Shown here piece by piece: positions 43,857-51,424 of a stretch of DNA of 64,000 bases. The notes beneath the pieces are model-generated. The model searched no databases. It was not told where the DNA came from and saw only the letters and a program-made list of their open reading frames with translations. The stretch covers positions 2,790,001 through 2,854,000 of the forward strand of contig NZ_CP119559.1 of the NCBI RefSeq assembly GCF_029278565.1, in the 5' to 3' direction. The position numbers were made by a program, and so were the translations under genes. The DNA comes from Haloarcula halophila. GTDB lineage: Archaea > Halobacteriota > Halobacteria > Halobacteriales > Haloarculaceae. How positions within the stretch are numbered: the stretch's first letter is position 1; each line of letters opens with the position of its first letter.

Positions 43857-44541
43857 CGACGACCCGGAGGACCCGTTTGCGGACCTCGACACCGACGACC
43901 GGGAGGGGGACCCGTTCGAACGGCTCACTGGGGACGACGAGGAGTCGACCGACGATACGGCGCCGGAAGTTACCGATGTCTTCGAAGACACCCCTCCGGC
44001 CCCCAACGACGACGGCGACGACCACTTCGAGCAGGGATGGTCCGACGAGGCGGACGGGGACGACGTCTTCGAGCGAACGGGTACCGGTGAGGCCACAGAC
44101 GACGGTGCCACCCGGAGCCACTCGGACCCACAGGGGGCACAACCGACCGGTCCCACAGTCGACGACGGGCCGGCCCCGGGGTCGGCCGACGACCCCTTCG
44201 ACGGGATGGACGACCGAGAAGGCGACCCCTTCGAGGGGGGCGAGAGTGCCTTCGAACGTGTCGACGTCGGCAGTATCGACGCCGACTCGGTCTGGGAGGA
44301 GATCACCGCCGAGGACGACGATGGGCCGGCAGGCGAGTCAGTCACGGAGGTGCCGGACGTGGGCTACGCCGAGGTGTCCAAACACCGGTACTGCGAGCAG
44401 TGTGAGTTCTTCTCCGGGCCGCCGGAGGTGAACTGCTCTCACGACGAGGCACGGATTCTGGAGTTCGTCGACATGGAGACGGTCCGGCTGGCGGACTGTC
44501 CGATCGTCGCCGAGCAACGGGCTCTGGAGAACGAGGAGTAA
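43849..44541 (+). CDS. Very acidic protein with C-terminal cysteine motif
   Basis: 230 residues. The first 165 are dominated by Asp, Glu, Gly, Thr and Pro with repeated DPF/DxFE units (EDPFADLD, GDPFERLT, DPFDGMD, GDPFEGGE), probably disordered. The last 60 residues are compact and carry four Cys (RYCEQCEFFSGPPEVNCSHD and LADCPIVAEQ), a likely metal site. The short DPF repeats could be docking motifs. It is coupled to the upstream RHH protein and 32 bp before tfs. Confidence 0.75.
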   Translation: MSDDDPEDPFADLDTDDREGDPFERLTGDDEESTDDTAPEVTDVFEDTPPAPNDDGDDHFEQGWSDEADGDDVFERTGTGEATDDGATRSHSDPQGAQPTGPTVDDGPAPGSADDPFDGMDDREGDPFEGGESAFERVDVGSIDADSVWEEITAEDDDGPAGESVTEVPDVGYAEVSKHRYCEQCEFFSGPPEVNCSHDEARILEFVDMETVRLADCPIVAEQRALENEE

Positions 44542-44573
44542 CGGTTTTCCTCGCGGACCGACGACCGGTACAC

Positions 44574-44897
44574 ATGCAGTTCTGCGACGACTGCGGCTCG
44601 ATGATGCACGCCGACGGCGACGAGATGGTCTGTCAGTCCTGTGGCACACGGGCGGCGAAAGACGCGGACCGCGCCGCCGAGTTCGTCACGACGGACGAAC
44701 AGAGCGACGACGACGTCATCGAGACCGAGGAGGGCGCGAACTTCGAGGGGAAACCGACGGCCAACGACGTCACCTGCGACGAGTGTGGCCACGGGAAGGC
44801 CTGGTATACGATCAAACAGACCGGCTCGGCCGACGAACCGCCGACGAGGTTCTTCAAATGTCAGGACTGTGGCCACCGCTGGCGAGAATATAACTGA
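44574..44897 (+). CDS. tfs: Transcription factor S (TFIIS/RPB9-like), 3' end rebuilt by an insertion
   Basis: 107 residues. The N-terminal zinc ribbon uses Cys4/Cys7/Cys21/Cys24 and the C-terminal ribbon CDEC...CQDC contains the acidic Asp-Glu pair (GSADEPPT) that stimulates RNA polymerase to cleave backtracked transcripts. Full family length. The last codons CGA GAA TAT AAC TGA are AT-rich compared with the rest of the gene, and a second copy of the end with codons CGG GAG TAC AAT TAA lies at 46779-46814. The protein is unchanged; the present tail probably came from the inserted element. Confidence 0.95.
   Translation: MQFCDDCGSMMHADGDEMVCQSCGTRAAKDADRAAEFVTTDEQSDDDVIETEEGANFEGKPTANDVTCDECGHGKAWYTIKQTGSADEPPTRFFKCQDCGHRWREYN
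44862..44884 (+). repeat. Left attachment-like repeat (attL) inside tfs
   Basis: 23 bp, identical to 46779-46801, encoding the QDCGHRW part of TFS. The bases that follow are synonymous with those following the right copy, not identical. This marks the crossover core of a site-specific integration into the 3' end of tfs. Confidence 0.75.
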
Positions 44898-45107
44898 AGG
44901 TGGCTATAGAAGGCCCAAAACTTCCGTTAGGGGCAGAATAGGCTTTTTCGGGTGGGCATTAGTTCTTGCAATGATTACATCGTAGAGGGTGTCATAGAAG
45001 TCTTCCCACACCTACACAGGAATCGCTCAGTACTGGTGATCCACATGCCGACGCCTATCACCGATCTACCCACACTCCGTCAGAAACTGCGTGTGAGATA
45101 CAGAGGG
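44898..45107. other. Low-GC non-coding left end of the inserted element
   Basis: About 210 bp with no convincing gene. A rightward frame of 63 residues (44952-45143) lacks halophilic composition. The segment has markedly more A and T than its surroundings and may contain degraded element sequence. Confidence 0.4.
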
Positions 45108-45356
45108 TTATCGGTCGTTCTGTTTCCCTTCACGATAGCCTAATACTCCTGACTCAGCCGTTGTTTTCAGGATTCGGTATATTCCAACGAGAACCCTGAC
45201 CATGAGAATCCCACCACCAACCCAGATGAGAACCCGTGAGAGTTCAATCCCTCCGAGGAGGAGGGTCTCGGGAGTAATTACCCCGAGAAGGAAGAGAGCC
45301 AAACCAATCCAGAAGGCTTCGTTCCGCTGGGAGAGTTCTGTGAGGGTATCCGCCAT
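45108..45356 (-). CDS. Small two-helix membrane protein in the inserted element
   Basis: 82 residues with two hydrophobic helices (FWIGLALFLLGVITPETLLLGG and VLIWVGGGILMVRVLVGIYRIL) and a basic tail (GYREGKQNDR). The frame extends to a TTG at 45395, but a TATA-like GTTTAATTCC on the minus strand is about 28 nt before the ATG at 45356. Its codons are less GC-rich than those of chromosomal neighbours. No family recognised; small membrane proteins are common cargo of haloarchaeal plasmids and viruses. Confidence 0.6.
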   Translation of the reverse strand: MADTLTELSQRNEAFWIGLALFLLGVITPETLLLGGIELSRVLIWVGGGILMVRVLVGIYRILKTTAESGVLGYREGKQNDR

Positions 45357-45492
45357 ATCGTTAAGTAAGTTGTTGTGGGAATTAAACTTCGCCAATGACC
45401 GACTCGCGCCCTGTATCTTGCACGACTATTGGGACACCTCTCTGAGCTGGTAGAATCCTCGGAAATCAATGCGCAAGCGCGTTCTATCCCGT

Positions 45493-46623
45493 TCAGTTGT
45501 CGGGGGGCGGCATCTCTGGACCAGGCTTAAGCCCACTGTCGAGAAGTCGTGTTGCCGTTCGTGAGGAGGGAGGTGATATCCTTTCGGGAACCACGTCTGG
45601 TTCTGTCGGCATATCGACACTATCCGGGGTAGGGTCGATCTGCCAACCGTAGTAGTGACGGAAGTAGGCAGCGACGTCAGCCCCGTAGCGTCCTTCATCG
45701 CCGCGGACTGCGTCAATTCCGTCTTCGAACGTGAACCTCGAGTCCGCCAAGTAGACGTAGCCGTCCACCTGGCCCGTACCCCCATCACCGTAGCAGAACA
45801 CGACCCAGTCGACATCGCCATCGTAGCTGCCGGGACCGAAGCCGAGCCGAGGACCCTCGTCGTTGACTGCAACGCCGGTGAGCGGAACGCGAACTCTGAC
45901 TCGGCCTGGCTCATCCTCGGAGGGCTGTTCGCGAACGAGGTCAGTTGCGCCGTCGGTCACCCAGGGTCGGTCGACGAGGTCACCACGGTCCACGAGGACA
46001 AGTCCCTCCTCACGGAAGTTGACGCGGAGCCAGTCGACGAAGTCGTCTCCAATACTGTAGCCTTCGGCGAACGCATGCGGGTTATCGAGCCGTCCCTCGA
46101 CGATGAGCCAGTCGTTTGCGTCCTCGATAGTGAACGGACCAGTCGGCGGATCGTCTGTGAGTGTCTTATCCGGCACGATCTCGGGGCGTGCGATGTCGAT
46201 CGAGGGGTGGTAGTACGGTGAGGTCCGGTACGGTCCGGCACTCTCGACGCTGACGCCGTGATACCGCTCCAGATAGGCCTCGGTATCGGCACCGCTGTGG
46301 GTCCGTGCCCCCTCGAACTCATCGATACACGTCCCGCCTTCGTACACCTTGGCGTGGACGCCAATGGCCTCGTCCAGCGTCCACGAGAGGATCGCCCACT
46401 CTAGCGGCCCGAGATCCCCCTGTTCAATCGCGTCGTCGATTGCACCGCGGTGTGGCGTCCGTCCACTGAACTCGTACCGTAGTCGACCCTCAACAGGGTC
46501 GCGCGGCGCAGTTTCTTCGTAGTTGTTCGACCACTCCTCGGTATCGACCAACGTACTGATCCTCTCGTGGAACGCGTCGGGTTCGCGTGTCTGGACGACG
46601 AGGGCGGTGTACGTTCGCGGCAC
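45493..46623 (-). CDS. Unrecognised 376-residue protein in the inserted element
   Basis: An acidic, soluble protein. Visible features: an early segment YTALVVQTREPDAFHERIST, a repeated-looking DxxxY/YY theme (ERYHGVSVESAGPYRTSPYY; YFRHYYGWQIDP), and a C-terminal Pro-rich tail. No integrase, replication, nuclease or transposase motif is visible and no membrane segment is present. A TATA box (TTTTTTATT, minus strand, about 46645-46653) is 26 nt from the GTG at 46623, which is preferred over the ATG at 46635. Function unknown. Confidence 0.65.
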   Translation of the reverse strand: MPRTYTALVVQTREPDAFHERISTLVDTEEWSNNYEETAPRDPVEGRLRYEFSGRTPHRGAIDDAIEQGDLGPLEWAILSWTLDEAIGVHAKVYEGGTCIDEFEGARTHSGADTEAYLERYHGVSVESAGPYRTSPYYHPSIDIARPEIVPDKTLTDDPPTGPFTIEDANDWLIVEGRLDNPHAFAEGYSIGDDFVDWLRVNFREEGLVLVDRGDLVDRPWVTDGATDLVREQPSEDEPGRVRVRVPLTGVAVNDEGPRLGFGPGSYDGDVDWVVFCYGDGGTGQVDGYVYLADSRFTFEDGIDAVRGDEGRYGADVAAYFRHYYGWQIDPTPDSVDMPTEPDVVPERISPPSSRTATRLLDSGLKPGPEMPPPDN

Positions 46624-46644
46624 GTCTCGGCACATGTGGACCTG

Positions 46645-46653
46645 AATAAAAAA
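46645..46653 (-). promoter_or_regulatory. TATA box for the element's large gene
   Basis: TTTTTTATT on the minus strand, centred about 26 nt before the GTG at 46623. Confidence 0.45.
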
Positions 46654-46771
46654 CCTGTCTCGCTTCGCCAGCAGCTCTCGACTGACTGATAGAGTCCCAC
46701 CGATCGGTACGAACAGCCCGAATCTCCTCGATAGGCAACCTAAACAATCTGCTTACGCCAGCAAGCTGTTT

Positions 46772-46814
46772 CATCTGCCAGGACTGTGGCCACCGCTGGC
46801 GGGAGTACAATTAA
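46772..46814 (+). pseudogene. Displaced 3' end of tfs
   Basis: Fourteen codons, Phe-Ile-Cys-Gln-Asp-Cys-Gly-His-Arg-Trp-Arg-Glu-Tyr-Asn, and TAA, with no start codon or upstream coding sequence. The part right of the core is best read as the host's original gene end, left behind when the element inserted. Confidence 0.7.
46779..46801 (+). repeat. Right attachment-like repeat (attR)
   Basis: Exact copy of 44862-44884. In frame it continues to 46814 as the displaced original end of tfs: codons for Phe-Ile-Cys, then the shared core, then CGG GAG TAC AAT TAA. Confidence 0.75.
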
Positions 46815-46838
46815 CCCGCTGCCCGACGCCGTCTCCGT

Positions 46839-47384
46839 ATGACACTGGAAGAACGGACCCGGGAGGCGGTCCGGACGGAACTACAGCGACTCCTCGACCG
46901 GTACGGTGAGGTCGAAGTTGACCGCCAGACCGTAACCAACGAACCCGACCTGTTCGAGGCGGGACGAGACCTCGCCCAGGAGGGGTGGCTGGGCGACGCG
47001 GGGACCTGGGTCACTGACGATTCGGGACGTGTCCTGCTCATTCGACACGAGGGCGAGCCCGACACCTGGGGGACACCCGGTGGCGGTCACGAACCGGGGA
47101 CCGACGACGGTCTCGACGGGACGGCCCTGCGGACGCTGACCGAACAGACCGGCGTTGAGGCCGACCTGGACTCGCTGTACTACGTCCGCTGGCAGACGGT
47201 CGTCAACGAGGCCGACGCCGACGACCGGCTCCACATGCTCAGCGTGGTGTTCGAGGGAACGGCTGTCTCGACCGACATCGTCGAGGGCGAGGCCGACCAC
47301 GGCGTGCTGGCGGCGACGTGGTTCCAGAACCTCCCCGAACGTCTCCACGAGATTCCACAACGGAAGTCCGAGGAAGCCGAGTGA
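46839..47384 (+). CDS. Nudix-fold protein with incomplete Nudix box
   Basis: 181 residues. An N-terminal helical region (1-50) precedes the Nudix fold (GTWVTDDSGRVLLIRHEGEPDTWGTPGGGHEPG). The Nudix box should read GX5EX7REUXEEXGU; here the part corresponding to REUXEE is RTLTEQTG, so the first catalytic Glu is Thr and the last is Gln. Hydrolysis of nucleoside diphosphate derivatives is therefore doubtful. Before the insertion it would have lain about 25 bp downstream of tfs, probably in the same transcript. Confidence 0.82.
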   Translation: MTLEERTREAVRTELQRLLDRYGEVEVDRQTVTNEPDLFEAGRDLAQEGWLGDAGTWVTDDSGRVLLIRHEGEPDTWGTPGGGHEPGTDDGLDGTALRTLTEQTGVEADLDSLYYVRWQTVVNEADADDRLHMLSVVFEGTAVSTDIVEGEADHGVLAATWFQNLPERLHEIPQRKSEEAE

Positions 47385-47447
47385 GTCGGTCAAAACCCGC
47401 TCGAAGCCTACTGAAGACACTTACACCGACGGGTGGAAGCGTCCCGT

Positions 47448-48323
47448 ATGCGCCGCCGCCACTTCCTCGGGCTCTGTGGCTCGCTGGTCGCCGGGACCGC
47501 CGGCTGTCTCCAGGGGACCGACGGACCCGCCGACCCGCCGGAGCGTCGGACGGATCGCTCGTCGACGCCACCGACGACGGCATCCGGAACGGACCCTTCG
47601 GCTGTCGAGATCACGAGCGCAGCCGTCCAGCCGGGCGTCGTCGGCCCGAACACGCCGGATTCGATCGGCGTCTTCGACGAGTTCGGGCAGTACCTCGTCG
47701 TCCAGGTCGCGCGAGCGGGTCCTGCGTACGACGCCTTCGACTTTCGGTTCGACGGCCAGCTGTTCCCGTCGACCACGCTCCAGAGCGGGCTCTACCGGGA
47801 CGACGAGTGGGGAGTCAGGTACAGTGACGGCAGCGGGCCGGTGCTGTTCGGGTTGCCGGAGACCGGCGACGCCAGCGACGCGCGGCTACAGTTCGGCGAC
47901 CGAACGTGGGAACCGCCACAGCCGGTGCGCGACCGACTCGAAGCACCGCTACCGACGTTCGACGTGACGATGCGCGGCCCCGACCGGGTCGGGCCGGACA
48001 GGGACCCGGTACTGCTGGTGACGGTGACGAACGAGAGCGACCGCTCGGGCTGGTATACGCTCGCGCTCAACCGTTCCGGGCCGCTGATTGCGTCGGCACC
48101 GATCCGACGTATCGCCGGGACGCTCGAACCGGGCGAGGAGCGGACGATCAGCCACGACGCCCGGAGTCCGTTCTCGCCGGATGCCGATCCGAGTGCGGTG
48201 ACCTACCGGCTCGACGTCCCCGGCGAGGACCGGGGACGCTCACACACGATCGAGCCGACAGAACGGACGAAGACGCCGGGCTGGACCGACGAGGGGACCG
48301 CGACCGCGAGCGGTACGGAGTGA
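47448..48323 (+). CDS. Tat-dependent lipoprotein, unassigned
   Basis: 291 residues. The N-terminus MRRRHFLGLCGSLVAGTAGC is a twin-arginine signal with lipobox, giving lipidation at Cys20; a Thr/Ser/Pro-rich linker follows. The mature part looks like two beta domains (about 55-165 and 170-265, the second with FDVTMRGPDRVGPDRDPVLL). Exposed on the outer face of the membrane. The ATG at 47448, not the in-frame ATG at 47433, starts the signal; a CTTACACC element is about 28 nt upstream. Function unknown. Confidence 0.75.
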   Translation: MRRRHFLGLCGSLVAGTAGCLQGTDGPADPPERRTDRSSTPPTTASGTDPSAVEITSAAVQPGVVGPNTPDSIGVFDEFGQYLVVQVARAGPAYDAFDFRFDGQLFPSTTLQSGLYRDDEWGVRYSDGSGPVLFGLPETGDASDARLQFGDRTWEPPQPVRDRLEAPLPTFDVTMRGPDRVGPDRDPVLLVTVTNESDRSGWYTLALNRSGPLIASAPIRRIAGTLEPGEERTISHDARSPFSPDADPSAVTYRLDVPGEDRGRSHTIEPTERTKTPGWTDEGTATASGTE

Positions 48324-48328
48324 CCGAT

Positions 48329-48874
48329 TCACTCGGAGACGGCCGCGGCGTCCTTGCGGACGAGTTCGTCGTGTTTACGGTCGACCCAGAGGGCGATGGG
48401 CCAGTTGTCGGGATCGTACGGGGCAGCGCCTTCGAGCAGTTCCATCCGGCCGACCGGCTCGGGCGGCATCGTCACGAGGCCCTCGTGTCGCTCGTCACCG
48501 ATCGCCTCGATCGTGTGACGGGCGCCGCCCGGGAGGTAGACGAACTCGCGCGGTTGTACTTCGATGACCTGCTCAGTGCCGTCTTCCTGTGCTAGCGTGT
48601 AACGGGCTCTCCCGGCCAGACACAGGCAGACTTCGTCGAAGCTCGGGGTGTGGGTGTGCCAGTCGATCGTCGCGCCGGGACCCATCTCGAAGTACAGCTG
48701 TTTGAACTCGTTCGTGACACAGACGGGGTACGTCCGGATGTCCTCGCCGCCCTGCTGGACACAACTCGCGTCGTCGAGGGACACCTTGTACATCGTCTGG
48801 TCGGGGAGGTGGGTGTAATCGAGGGATCGCGGGGTCAGATCGGAACGGCTGTTCGAATCACTTTCGTCGCTCAT
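48329..48874 (-). CDS. Cupin-domain protein
   Basis: 181 residues with a single cupin barrel. Motif 1, WHTHTPSFDEVCLCLAGRARY, gives metal ligands His, His and Glu; motif 2, PGGARHTIEAIGDE, gives the last His. Ligand and reaction are unknown; single-domain cupins include isomerases, dioxygenases and binding proteins. It converges with the lipoprotein gene (six bases between the ends). Confidence 0.85.
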   Translation of the reverse strand: MSDESDSNSRSDLTPRSLDYTHLPDQTMYKVSLDDASCVQQGGEDIRTYPVCVTNEFKQLYFEMGPGATIDWHTHTPSFDEVCLCLAGRARYTLAQEDGTEQVIEVQPREFVYLPGGARHTIEAIGDERHEGLVTMPPEPVGRMELLEGAAPYDPDNWPIALWVDRKHDELVRKDAAAVSE

Positions 48875-48924
48875 ACCGGAACAGCACCGACAACCGAGAC
48901 GAGAGTAAAAAACGCTCCCCCGAT

Positions 48925-49797
48925 TCAGACCGGCAACGCGAGCCAGGCGACGACGACAACGCCTGCGCCGACGACGGTGGAGCCGACGGCGTGGGTCCGC
49001 AACTCGTCGAGCAGGTCGTGGGAGTGTTCGTGCAGCGAACAGACCTCGTCGATCTCGCTGCCGGCCTCGCAGTTGGGCAGGAAGTCCATCGCGACGTGGA
49101 GGAAGATGCCCGCGGCGAACCCGAAGACGACGGCGTTGAGCGCCGGTGCCTGCGGGACGGCGAGCAGCGCCGACGGGATCGCCGTCAGACCGACGCCGGC
49201 TGCTGGCAACAGGAGTGCGGTCGCGGACTTCCCGTTCCGACTCAGCCGTCGAGCGGCCGCGTAGCCCGCGGGACCCTTGTGTGAGACGATCGCCAGTCCG
49301 AGCAGGAGGCCCAGCGTCGGCATCGAGCCGTAGACCAACCCGATGATGAGCCCGGCCGAGAGCGCGTGGGCGGCGATGGCCGCCGTCGTCGTGTCGAAAC
49401 TCGTCTCGACGTGGGTGAGTCGATGGCCGATCGTGTGGCTCCCGTAGCCGACGACAAGCCCCAGCGCGATGCCGATGCCGCCGATGCGGGGTGAACCGGC
49501 CTGCCCGCCCAGTCCCATCGCCTGGGGGACCAGAAACATCGCTGCCGAGGTGACCATCGCCCCGCTGGCGAGTCCGTACCCCCAGACGAGCCGATGCGGG
49601 TTGGTCCGTTCAGCCCGCACGCTCAGCCACGCACCCGCGACCATCGCCGCGAACGCGACCCACGAGATGACGAGTACTTTGACGAGCCCGCCAGTGACGG
49701 CCAGTGCCGAGAGCGCGATCAGCACGACGACGCTGGCGACACCGACGAGAGACGGGCGATCGGGGTTATTAAAAACTCTAACTTCGTTAATAGCCAT
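48925..49797 (-). CDS. ZIP-family metal transporter
   Basis: 290 residues with about eight helices. The metal site of ZIP carriers is visible as AIAAHALSAGLIIGL in helix IV and IVSHKGPAG in helix V. The cytosolic tail CSLHEHSHDLLDELRTHAVG adds His. Imports Zn2+, Mn2+ or Fe2+; specificity cannot be told. The first 12 codons are unusually AT-rich, and two direct repeats lie between the TATA box and the start codon, suggesting metal-dependent repression. Confidence 0.88.
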   Translation of the reverse strand: MAINEVRVFNNPDRPSLVGVASVVVLIALSALAVTGGLVKVLVISWVAFAAMVAGAWLSVRAERTNPHRLVWGYGLASGAMVTSAAMFLVPQAMGLGGQAGSPRIGGIGIALGLVVGYGSHTIGHRLTHVETSFDTTTAAIAAHALSAGLIIGLVYGSMPTLGLLLGLAIVSHKGPAGYAAARRLSRNGKSATALLLPAAGVGLTAIPSALLAVPQAPALNAVVFGFAAGIFLHVAMDFLPNCEAGSEIDEVCSLHEHSHDLLDELRTHAVGSTVVGAGVVVVAWLALPV

Positions 49798-49824
49798 TAA
49801 CTACTAACAACGCATAGTTACTAA
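49798..49824 (-). promoter_or_regulatory. Repeated operator-like motif in the ZIP promoter
   Basis: On the minus strand TTAGTAACTA (49815-49824) and TTAGTAGTTA (49798-49807) occur 17 bp apart, immediately before the ATG at 49797; TAACTA and TAGTTA within them also form an inverted repeat. The TATA box (TTTATTAG, about 49821-49829) overlaps the first copy. A DtxR/MntR-type metal repressor is a reasonable candidate binder. Confidence 0.45.
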
Positions 49825-49902
49825 TAAATCCATCGGGTGATAGGACCGACAGCAGTGTCCGGGGGAGTGACGTGTATCACACACACAACGCTGTTTGGCA
49901 AC

Positions 49903-49912
49903 CGTTTTATGG
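49903..49912 (+). promoter_or_regulatory. TATA box of the bacterioruberin operon
   Basis: CGTTTTATGG lies 25-34 nt before the crtD ATG at 49937, giving a leaderless transcript for crtD-lyeJ-cruF. Confidence 0.5.
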
Positions 49913-49936
49913 TCGTTCCGCCCCGGTGTAGAGACA

Positions 49937-51424
49937 ATGAGTTCCCTCTCCGGAACGGCAGTTACGGTCGTCGGGGGCGGCTTCGGCGGGCTTTCAGCGG
50001 CCTGCTATCTGGCCGATGCCGGTGCTGACGTCCGTGTGTTGGAAAAGAACGACCATGTCGGCGGCCGAGCCTCACAACTGGAGGCCGAGGGGTTCCGGTT
50101 CGATATGGGTCCCTCCTGGTATCTGATGCCCGACGTCTTCGAGCGCTTTTTCGCGTACTTCGGGCGCGAGCCGAGCGACTTCTACGACCTGGAGCCCCTC
50201 GACCCCCACTATCGGATCTTCTTCAAGGACGGCGACCGACTCGACGTGACCGGCGACCACGAGGAGATGCGTGACCTGTTCGAATCTTACGAACCCGGGG
50301 CCGGCGAGGCGTTCGACGACTACCTGGAGACCAGCGAGTCCCACTACGAGACGGCGATGAACAAGTTCGTCTACGAGGACCGCTCGCGCCTGCGTGACTG
50401 GATTGATCTGGACGTGCTGACCGCCGCACCGGTCGGGCTCCAGCTCATCGGCTCGATGCAGGGCCACGTCGAGGACTACTTCGAACACCCGAAGCTCCAG
50501 CAGATCATGCAGTACACGCTGGTGTTCCTCGGTGGCTCGCCGAAGAACACGCCGGCGCTGTACAACATGATGAGCCACGTCGACTTCAACCTCGGCGTCT
50601 ACTACCCCGAGGGGGGCATCTACAGCGTAGTCGACGGGCTCGTGGAACTGGGGACCGACCTCGGAGTCACCTACGAGACGAGCGCGGAAGTCGACGAGAT
50701 CACCCGCCGGAAGGACGGGTTCCTCGTCCAGACCAAGGCAGGCGACGTGTCACACCCCGACCGCGTGGTCGTCAACGCCGACTACGCCCACGCCGAGCGG
50801 GAACTGTTGCCCGACCACGAACGCCAGTACGACGACGACTACTGGGACGACCGGACCTACGCCCCGTCGGCGTTTCTCATGTACCTGGGCGTCGAGGGCG
50901 ACGTCGAGCCCCTGGAACACCACACGCTCGTGCTCCCGACTGACTGGGAGCCCCACTTCGACGACATCTTCGAGGAACCCGACTGGCCCGACGACCCGGC
51001 CTACTACCTCTGTGTCCCCTCGAAGACCGACGACACGGTCGCTCCCGACGGACACTCGAATCTGTTCGCCCTCGTCCCCGTCGCGCCGGGACTCCACGAC
51101 GGCGAGGCGATCCGTGAGGAGTACCGCGAGAAGATCCTGGCCGACATCGCCGAGAACACGGGCGTGGACCTGCGGGACCGCATCGTCTACGAGAAACAGT
51201 TCGCCGTCTCGGACTTCGGCGAGCGGTACAACGCCACGGAGGGCACCGCGCTCGGCCTGGCCCACACGCTGCGCCAGACGGCGCTGCTCCGGCCGAACAA
51301 CCGCTCTTCGGCCGTCGACGGGCTCTACTTCACGGGCTCGTTTACGACGCCCGGCATCGGGGTCCCGATGTGTCTCATCAGCGGCGAACACACGGCACAG
51401 GCACTGATCGACGACGCCCAATGA
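49937..51424 (+). CDS. crtD: Carotenoid 3,4-desaturase (phytoene-desaturase family)
   Basis: 495 residues. The FAD-binding start VVGGGFGGLSAACYLADAGA followed by EKNDHVGGRA and the C-terminal GLYFTGSFTTPGIGVPMCLISG are those of CrtI-family desaturases. Its place as first gene of a three-gene operon with a lycopene elongase and CruF matches the characterised Haloarcula operon, where this enzyme introduces the 3,4 double bonds on the way to bacterioruberin; a phytoene desaturase is the alternative from sequence alone. Stop overlaps the next start (ATGA). The start at 49937 has TATA spacing; an earlier GTG or ATG is less likely. Confidence 0.92.
   Translation: MSSLSGTAVTVVGGGFGGLSAACYLADAGADVRVLEKNDHVGGRASQLEAEGFRFDMGPSWYLMPDVFERFFAYFGREPSDFYDLEPLDPHYRIFFKDGDRLDVTGDHEEMRDLFESYEPGAGEAFDDYLETSESHYETAMNKFVYEDRSRLRDWIDLDVLTAAPVGLQLIGSMQGHVEDYFEHPKLQQIMQYTLVFLGGSPKNTPALYNMMSHVDFNLGVYYPEGGIYSVVDGLVELGTDLGVTYETSAEVDEITRRKDGFLVQTKAGDVSHPDRVVVNADYAHAERELLPDHERQYDDDYWDDRTYAPSAFLMYLGVEGDVEPLEHHTLVLPTDWEPHFDDIFEEPDWPDDPAYYLCVPSKTDDTVAPDGHSNLFALVPVAPGLHDGEAIREEYREKILADIAENTGVDLRDRIVYEKQFAVSDFGERYNATEGTALGLAHTLRQTALLRPNNRSSAVDGLYFTGSFTTPGIGVPMCLISGEHTAQALIDDAQ

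Follow-up and report, generated by a model that had tools for sequence, protein, structure and literature searches.

The window analysed here, a stretch of 64,000 nucleotides from Haloarcula halophila (contig NZ_CP119559.1, positions 2,790,001 to 2,854,000), carries on its plus strand the gene for transcription factor S (tfs, 44574-44897), whose product exceeds the cut-off of the TFS_arch equivalog family in a profile search (E 2.7e-21), matches Zn_ribbon_TFIIS (E 2.3e-17) and, as judged from an empty site in the relative G020 described below, now has an element-derived 3' end. A second TFS paralogue, 44% identical, is present in the same genome (G000:C1:1312348-1312659, locus L002). The last codons of tfs include a 23-bp core, CAGGACTGTGGCCACCGCTGGCG, which is found exactly at 44862-44884 (attL, + strand) and again at 46779-46801 (attR, + strand). 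The left copy continues into an imported tail finishing CGA and then GAA TAT AAC TGA (44885-44897, +), and the right copy into the original chromosomal tfs tail, which was pushed away by the insertion (46802-46814, +). The intervening DNA comprises a conserved left end (44898-44984, +), a minus-strand open reading frame of 95 aa that by inspection is probably a membrane protein and matches no known family (45108-45395), a minus-strand orphan open reading frame of 380 aa (45493-46635), and a conserved right-end block, TCTCCTCGATAGGCAAC (46723-46739, +); its GC fraction is 0.58 as opposed to 0.66 for the window. A Nudix hydrolase gene (46839-47384, +; PF00293, E 2e-11) starts 24 nt past the right copy. 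In several relatives this gene lies 24-27 nt behind tfs, and with its displacement by 1.9 kb in the window co-transcription with tfs has probably been lost.

The 23-bp repeat is real and not a product of chance: it occurs at two sites only in the window even when three mismatches are allowed, and was matched in none of 100 dinucleotide-preserving shuffles. A weaker likeness between the copies reaches further upstream (55 nt at 78%, 44839-44893 and 46756-46810). As the original prediction had pointed out, the two ends are synonymous and not identical, the left tail AGAATATAACTGA and the right tail GGGAGTACAATTAA each finishing Arg-Glu-Tyr-Asn-stop with different codons and a different stop codon.

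Comparison of tfs ends across 29 relatives established which of these tails is foreign. In the closest relative of the window genome, G020 (TFS protein 96% identical), there is no insert: CGGGAGTACAATTAA closes the tfs gene and the Nudix gene comes directly after it, an order also seen in G017, G013, G022, G029 and G030. Over the tail, the right copy in the window matches the G020 tfs end base for base, while the left tail departs from it by several synonymous changes and by a different stop codon. Because the G020 site is empty and its native tail equals the right copy, it is the right copy that marks the former chromosomal end of tfs; the 1.9-kb insert brought the left tail with it. Alignment of the two regions resolves into blocks at 44160-44893 and 46770-51000, which have 41 nt of the G020 tfs gene in common, the 1.9 kb between them being missing from G020; the insertion is therefore real, and the host tfs gene ends with imported codons. 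Accordingly, both an empty site in a close relative and attL/attR direct repeats, as expected of a site-specifically integrated element, are present. A tandem or dispersed duplication of the tfs end followed by divergence, with no mobile element involved, had already been judged a poor fit and is now extremely improbable. The copies are indeed direct repeats of coding sequence, such as unequal exchange can make, but the native copy is the right one and not the left, the left tail runs on into DNA related to a recombinase-bearing element of another family, the empty site in G020 contradicts it, and the arrangement is repeated at nine or more tfs loci.

This recurrence emerged from a search for the tfs-end pattern in 391 Halobacteria, a survey that the original prediction had called for. 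A second copy of the tfs end in the same orientation lies just downstream of the gene in the window genome (1917 bp) and in G005 (400 bp), G187 (1614 bp), G309 (918 bp) and G077 (5408 bp), and a wider pattern added G111 and G314. The insert of G005 is also present in G031, where its right copy has decayed. This 0.4-kb insert is thus common to two species (L046 2434-2834 and L047 2302-2704), and decay of the right copy in one of them is expected of a tail no longer under selection. In alignments to congeners, which covered G005, G031, G187, G077, G111 and G314, the two blocks appeared each time, and the right copies again match native ends. With G005 and G031 counted once, insertions at tfs number at least nine loci, a lower bound because decayed or differently ending tails would be missed. 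The tfs 3' end is used repeatedly, by related as well as unrelated elements, across the haloarchaea.

Several of these insertions carry a candidate enzyme. In the G077 element, a tyrosine recombinase gene (PF00589, E 2.4e-9) adjoins attR and points into the element; its sole close relative among the 391 genomes, 90% identical, belongs to the 6.1-kb insert at tfs in G111. A scan of GTDB added Halarchaeum acidiphilum (recombinase 80% identical, with a probable frameshift near the C-terminus, in a 4.1-kb insert at tfs) and Haloferax denitrificans, in which a 45-residue C-terminal recombinase remnant persists about 1.3 kb behind tfs. All four members of this recombinase group are located at tfs, to which the family appears dedicated; in the vicinity of four remoter recombinases (33-35% identity) there is no tfs gene, and two of those four stretches contain a tRNA gene several kb off. 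The integrase-bearing elements of G077, G111 and Halarchaeum acidiphilum, in each of which the recombinase gene adjoins attR, measure 4-6 kb, and a Rep-like open reading frame in them (41% identical between G077 and Halarchaeum, with a weak DUF1424 match at E 0.006) suggests that they are small integrative plasmids. Virion genes were not seen in the tfs elements, and a search for a third att copy, as in a tandem array, behind the G111 and G077 elements found none. The G111 element additionally encodes a PD-T7-4-like anti-phage defence protein (L057 13543-14196; PADLOC E 1.7e-75), and an extra stretch with a 546-aa open reading frame lies directly behind the displaced tfs tail of that locus, about 1.55 kb behind the right copy, and is absent from G084.

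The ends of the window insert tie it to this group. Across 150 nt that take in the tfs end, its left end is 80% identical to that of G077 (E 1e-33), such that the first 87 nt after the window tfs gene are related to the G077 element; the left-end score of 107 was reached in none of 500 shuffles. The motif GAAGGCCCAAAACTNNCGTTAGNNGCA (44909-44935), searched with up to two mismatches, occurs in only two of the 391 genomes, those of the window and of G077, in both cases 11 nt past the tfs stop codon. The left end is weakly alike in G111 (0/500 shuffles), and the right end has TCTCCTCGATAGGYAAC in common with the Halarchaeum acidiphilum element, a 17-nt block identical at 16 positions (0/500 shuffles). 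In contrast to the members of the tfs-targeting group in G077, G111, Halarchaeum and H. denitrificans, whose tfs 3'-end site and ends it has in common, the window insert has no recombinase beside attR. On these features it is best read as a relative of the recombinase-bearing tfs elements that lost its recombinase. Homologous recombination with foreign DNA bearing a tfs end and the flanking 1.9 kb, in which the identical 23-bp core could act as short homology and no site-specific enzyme would be needed, is very improbable, since it explains neither why the junctions of several families fall in identical codons nor why the recombinase gene lies at attR in three of them.

The original prediction was also correct that no integrase is visible within the 1.9 kb: in profile searches neither open reading frame matched an integrase family, and a close relative of the recombinase is absent from the window genome at E 1e-35. 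The integrating agent, most plausibly a recombinase of the G077 type, must thus be deduced from relatives at the tfs site, which carry one, and the window insert is a derivative rather than an autonomous element. The 380-aa frame occupies the place of the relatives' recombinase gene, and no profile makes it a recombinase; it matched no family, has no homologue in 116 genomes of the host's family, and yields a poor predicted structure (pLDDT 45). Neither frame has relatives in the other tfs elements. Searches of IMG/VR returned nothing for relatives of the recombinase, for either window frame or for the tfs-tail pattern, and a free circular form of the element was not found there or in phage and plasmid collections.

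Taken together, the segment between the cores is very probably an integrated mobile element with a tfs-end attP, derived probably from a small integrative plasmid with a tfs-specific tyrosine recombinase. Under this scheme, the attP of the element would have resembled the end of tfs; recombination would have severed the host's original tail, now beside the Nudix gene, and an equivalent tail borne by the element would have taken its place at the end of tfs, leaving TFS intact. The element would later have lost its recombinase, or have been mobilised in trans, and is probably fixed. The second of these routes, movement of a non-autonomous element by the recombinase of another element rather than decay of an autonomous one, is possible though distinctly the less favoured. 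Several tfs inserts are short and devoid of a recombinase (0.4, 0.9, 1.6 and 1.9 kb), and the window insert shows no relationship to the autonomous elements in its interior. On the other side, Haloferax denitrificans displays ongoing decay in its recombinase remnant, and at the shuffle threshold applied the ends of the 0.4-, 0.9- and 1.6-kb inserts do not match those of the window insert, so that no family of small mobile copies is seen. The insertion with a self-supplied tail that had been proposed from the window sequence is thus borne out by the empty site in G020 and by integrase-bearing elements with related ends at tfs in other genera, the decay of a recombinase-bearing ancestor being the preferred account of its present form.

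The position of the crossover required revision. In the best-resolved cases the copies have CAAGTGC (G111) or TCAAATGC (G314) in common, the left copy being native upstream of this shared stretch and the right copy downstream of it, and the exchange accordingly appears to have taken place at the Phe-Lys-Cys (FKC) codons of the C-terminal zinc ribbon, upstream of the 23-bp core in which it had been predicted. In the window, crossover would have occurred in attL or at the FKC codons just upstream (44853-44861). Here, three of the seven positions of the FKC site in the right copy depart from native sequence while the 36 positions after them all agree with it, which tends to favour exchange within the 23-bp block. 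When the positions of tfs are ranked for dyad symmetry, the FKC codons fall within the top 1%, which is suggestive and no more.

Exchange at Phe-Lys-Cys would mean that an element can bring the last 11-12 or so residues of TFS, and not only four as first proposed, including a cysteine that we take to be the last zinc ligand of the TFS ribbon; alignment of the TFS tail to solved TFIIS-type ribbons supports this assignment. Nor is restoration always synonymous. The G077 tail reads KDCHNRWREYN, while its own right copy and G333 encode KECGYRWREYN, and the G111 tail reads KSCGHRWRDYS, while the native end is QECGSRWREYA. Integration makes TFS a host-element hybrid and can thereby alter its zinc ribbon, the part that reaches into the active site of the polymerase.

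A different solution is evident in G314, where the FKC codons are again the site of insertion, here of an element some 5 kb long (L090 4500-9830). Its tyrosine recombinase, the gene for which is split, apparently by an insertion sequence, has no detectable similarity to the G077-type recombinase. The resident tfs gene now ends FFKCEKRNSVAYS-stop, its tail not restored and the last zinc-ligand pair thereby broken, and within the element lies a complete tfs gene (L090:9109-9429), of a type present in only one of 12 genomes of that genus, G314 itself. The element-borne tfs gene, we infer, replaces the resident one. Partial and whole-gene solutions at one site thus represent two entries into a conserved gene by which the host keeps the protein.

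Restoration of the 3' end of a protein gene is already known. Prophages e14 and phage 21 in the icd gene of Escherichia coli carry a substitute 3' end and restore the protein on integration, but they differ from the tfs case in being bacterial and in gene and enzyme. For icd, we are aware of no counterpart to the G314 arrangement, in which a whole gene comes in at those codons. In archaea, thaumarchaeal elements such as NitEve-E2 sit in the 3' ends of protein genes with the frame repaired; as at tfs, the NitEve-E2 insertion is proven by an empty site in a relative, and element DNA replaces the last codons and stop while the frame stays open (PMC6563490). However, its target is a Zn-finger protein gene, phylum, gene and element all differ, the 8 nt that were replaced share no homology with the original end, whereas the C-terminus encoded by the tfs tail is identical or closely similar, and the portions consulted describe no repeated use of that gene across families (PMC6563490). 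Casposons in the thaumarchaeal EF-2 gene likewise target a conserved information-processing gene repeatedly at its 3' end, but with a Cas1-like enzyme, terminal inverted repeats and target-site duplications (PMC6563490), whereas the tfs relatives have a tyrosine recombinase (PF00589); Cas1 was found neither in the window insert, which does not qualify as a casposon, nor in the scanned G077 and G111 frames.

Further parallels are the SNJ2-type and other haloarchaeal integrases of small integrative plasmids and pleolipoviruses, which, as in the tfs elements, combine a SAM-like domain with a PF00589 tyrosine recombinase on small elements and integrate at conserved-gene 3' ends, although the described sites are tRNA genes, the main targets of archaeal tyrosine recombinases (PMC8371274). 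The tfs recombinase is 24-34% identical to the integrases of this kind that were found. Membership of the SNJ2-type family has been set at a minimum of 30% identity across 60% of the protein (PMC8371274); the tfs recombinase scores 27.2% over 66% with SNJ2 and 30.7% over 61% with Haloarcula virus Harhisp1.

No mention of tfs as an integration target was found in the open-access papers searched, which is weak evidence of absence; as a recurrent haloarchaeal target it has no report that we could find. The results point to a recurrent chromosomal docking site in haloarchaea within a protein-coding gene that belongs to the basal transcription machinery. On a bolder and less probable reading, unrelated elements would have converged on the tfs 3' end as a docking site, each taking over a general RNA-polymerase factor in part or in whole, with the host coming to depend on the element-borne TFS end (in G314, the gene), which would anchor the element or its end and might change TFS function, as with the G077 tail. 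The site and its enzyme might also serve as an integration tool in haloarchaeal genetics.

Finally, the expected pairing of tfs sequence with an integrase gene was found in the chromosomal elements of G077, G111 and Halarchaeum, and not in phage and plasmid collections, which returned distant integrases only and no tfs-like attP. The plasmid matches from Natrinema and Halocatena proved to be, respectively, an entire tfs gene and a tfs pseudogene with a frameshift. The latter, unannotated, is located on a 317-kb plasmid of Halocatena marina (L105 2890-3094).
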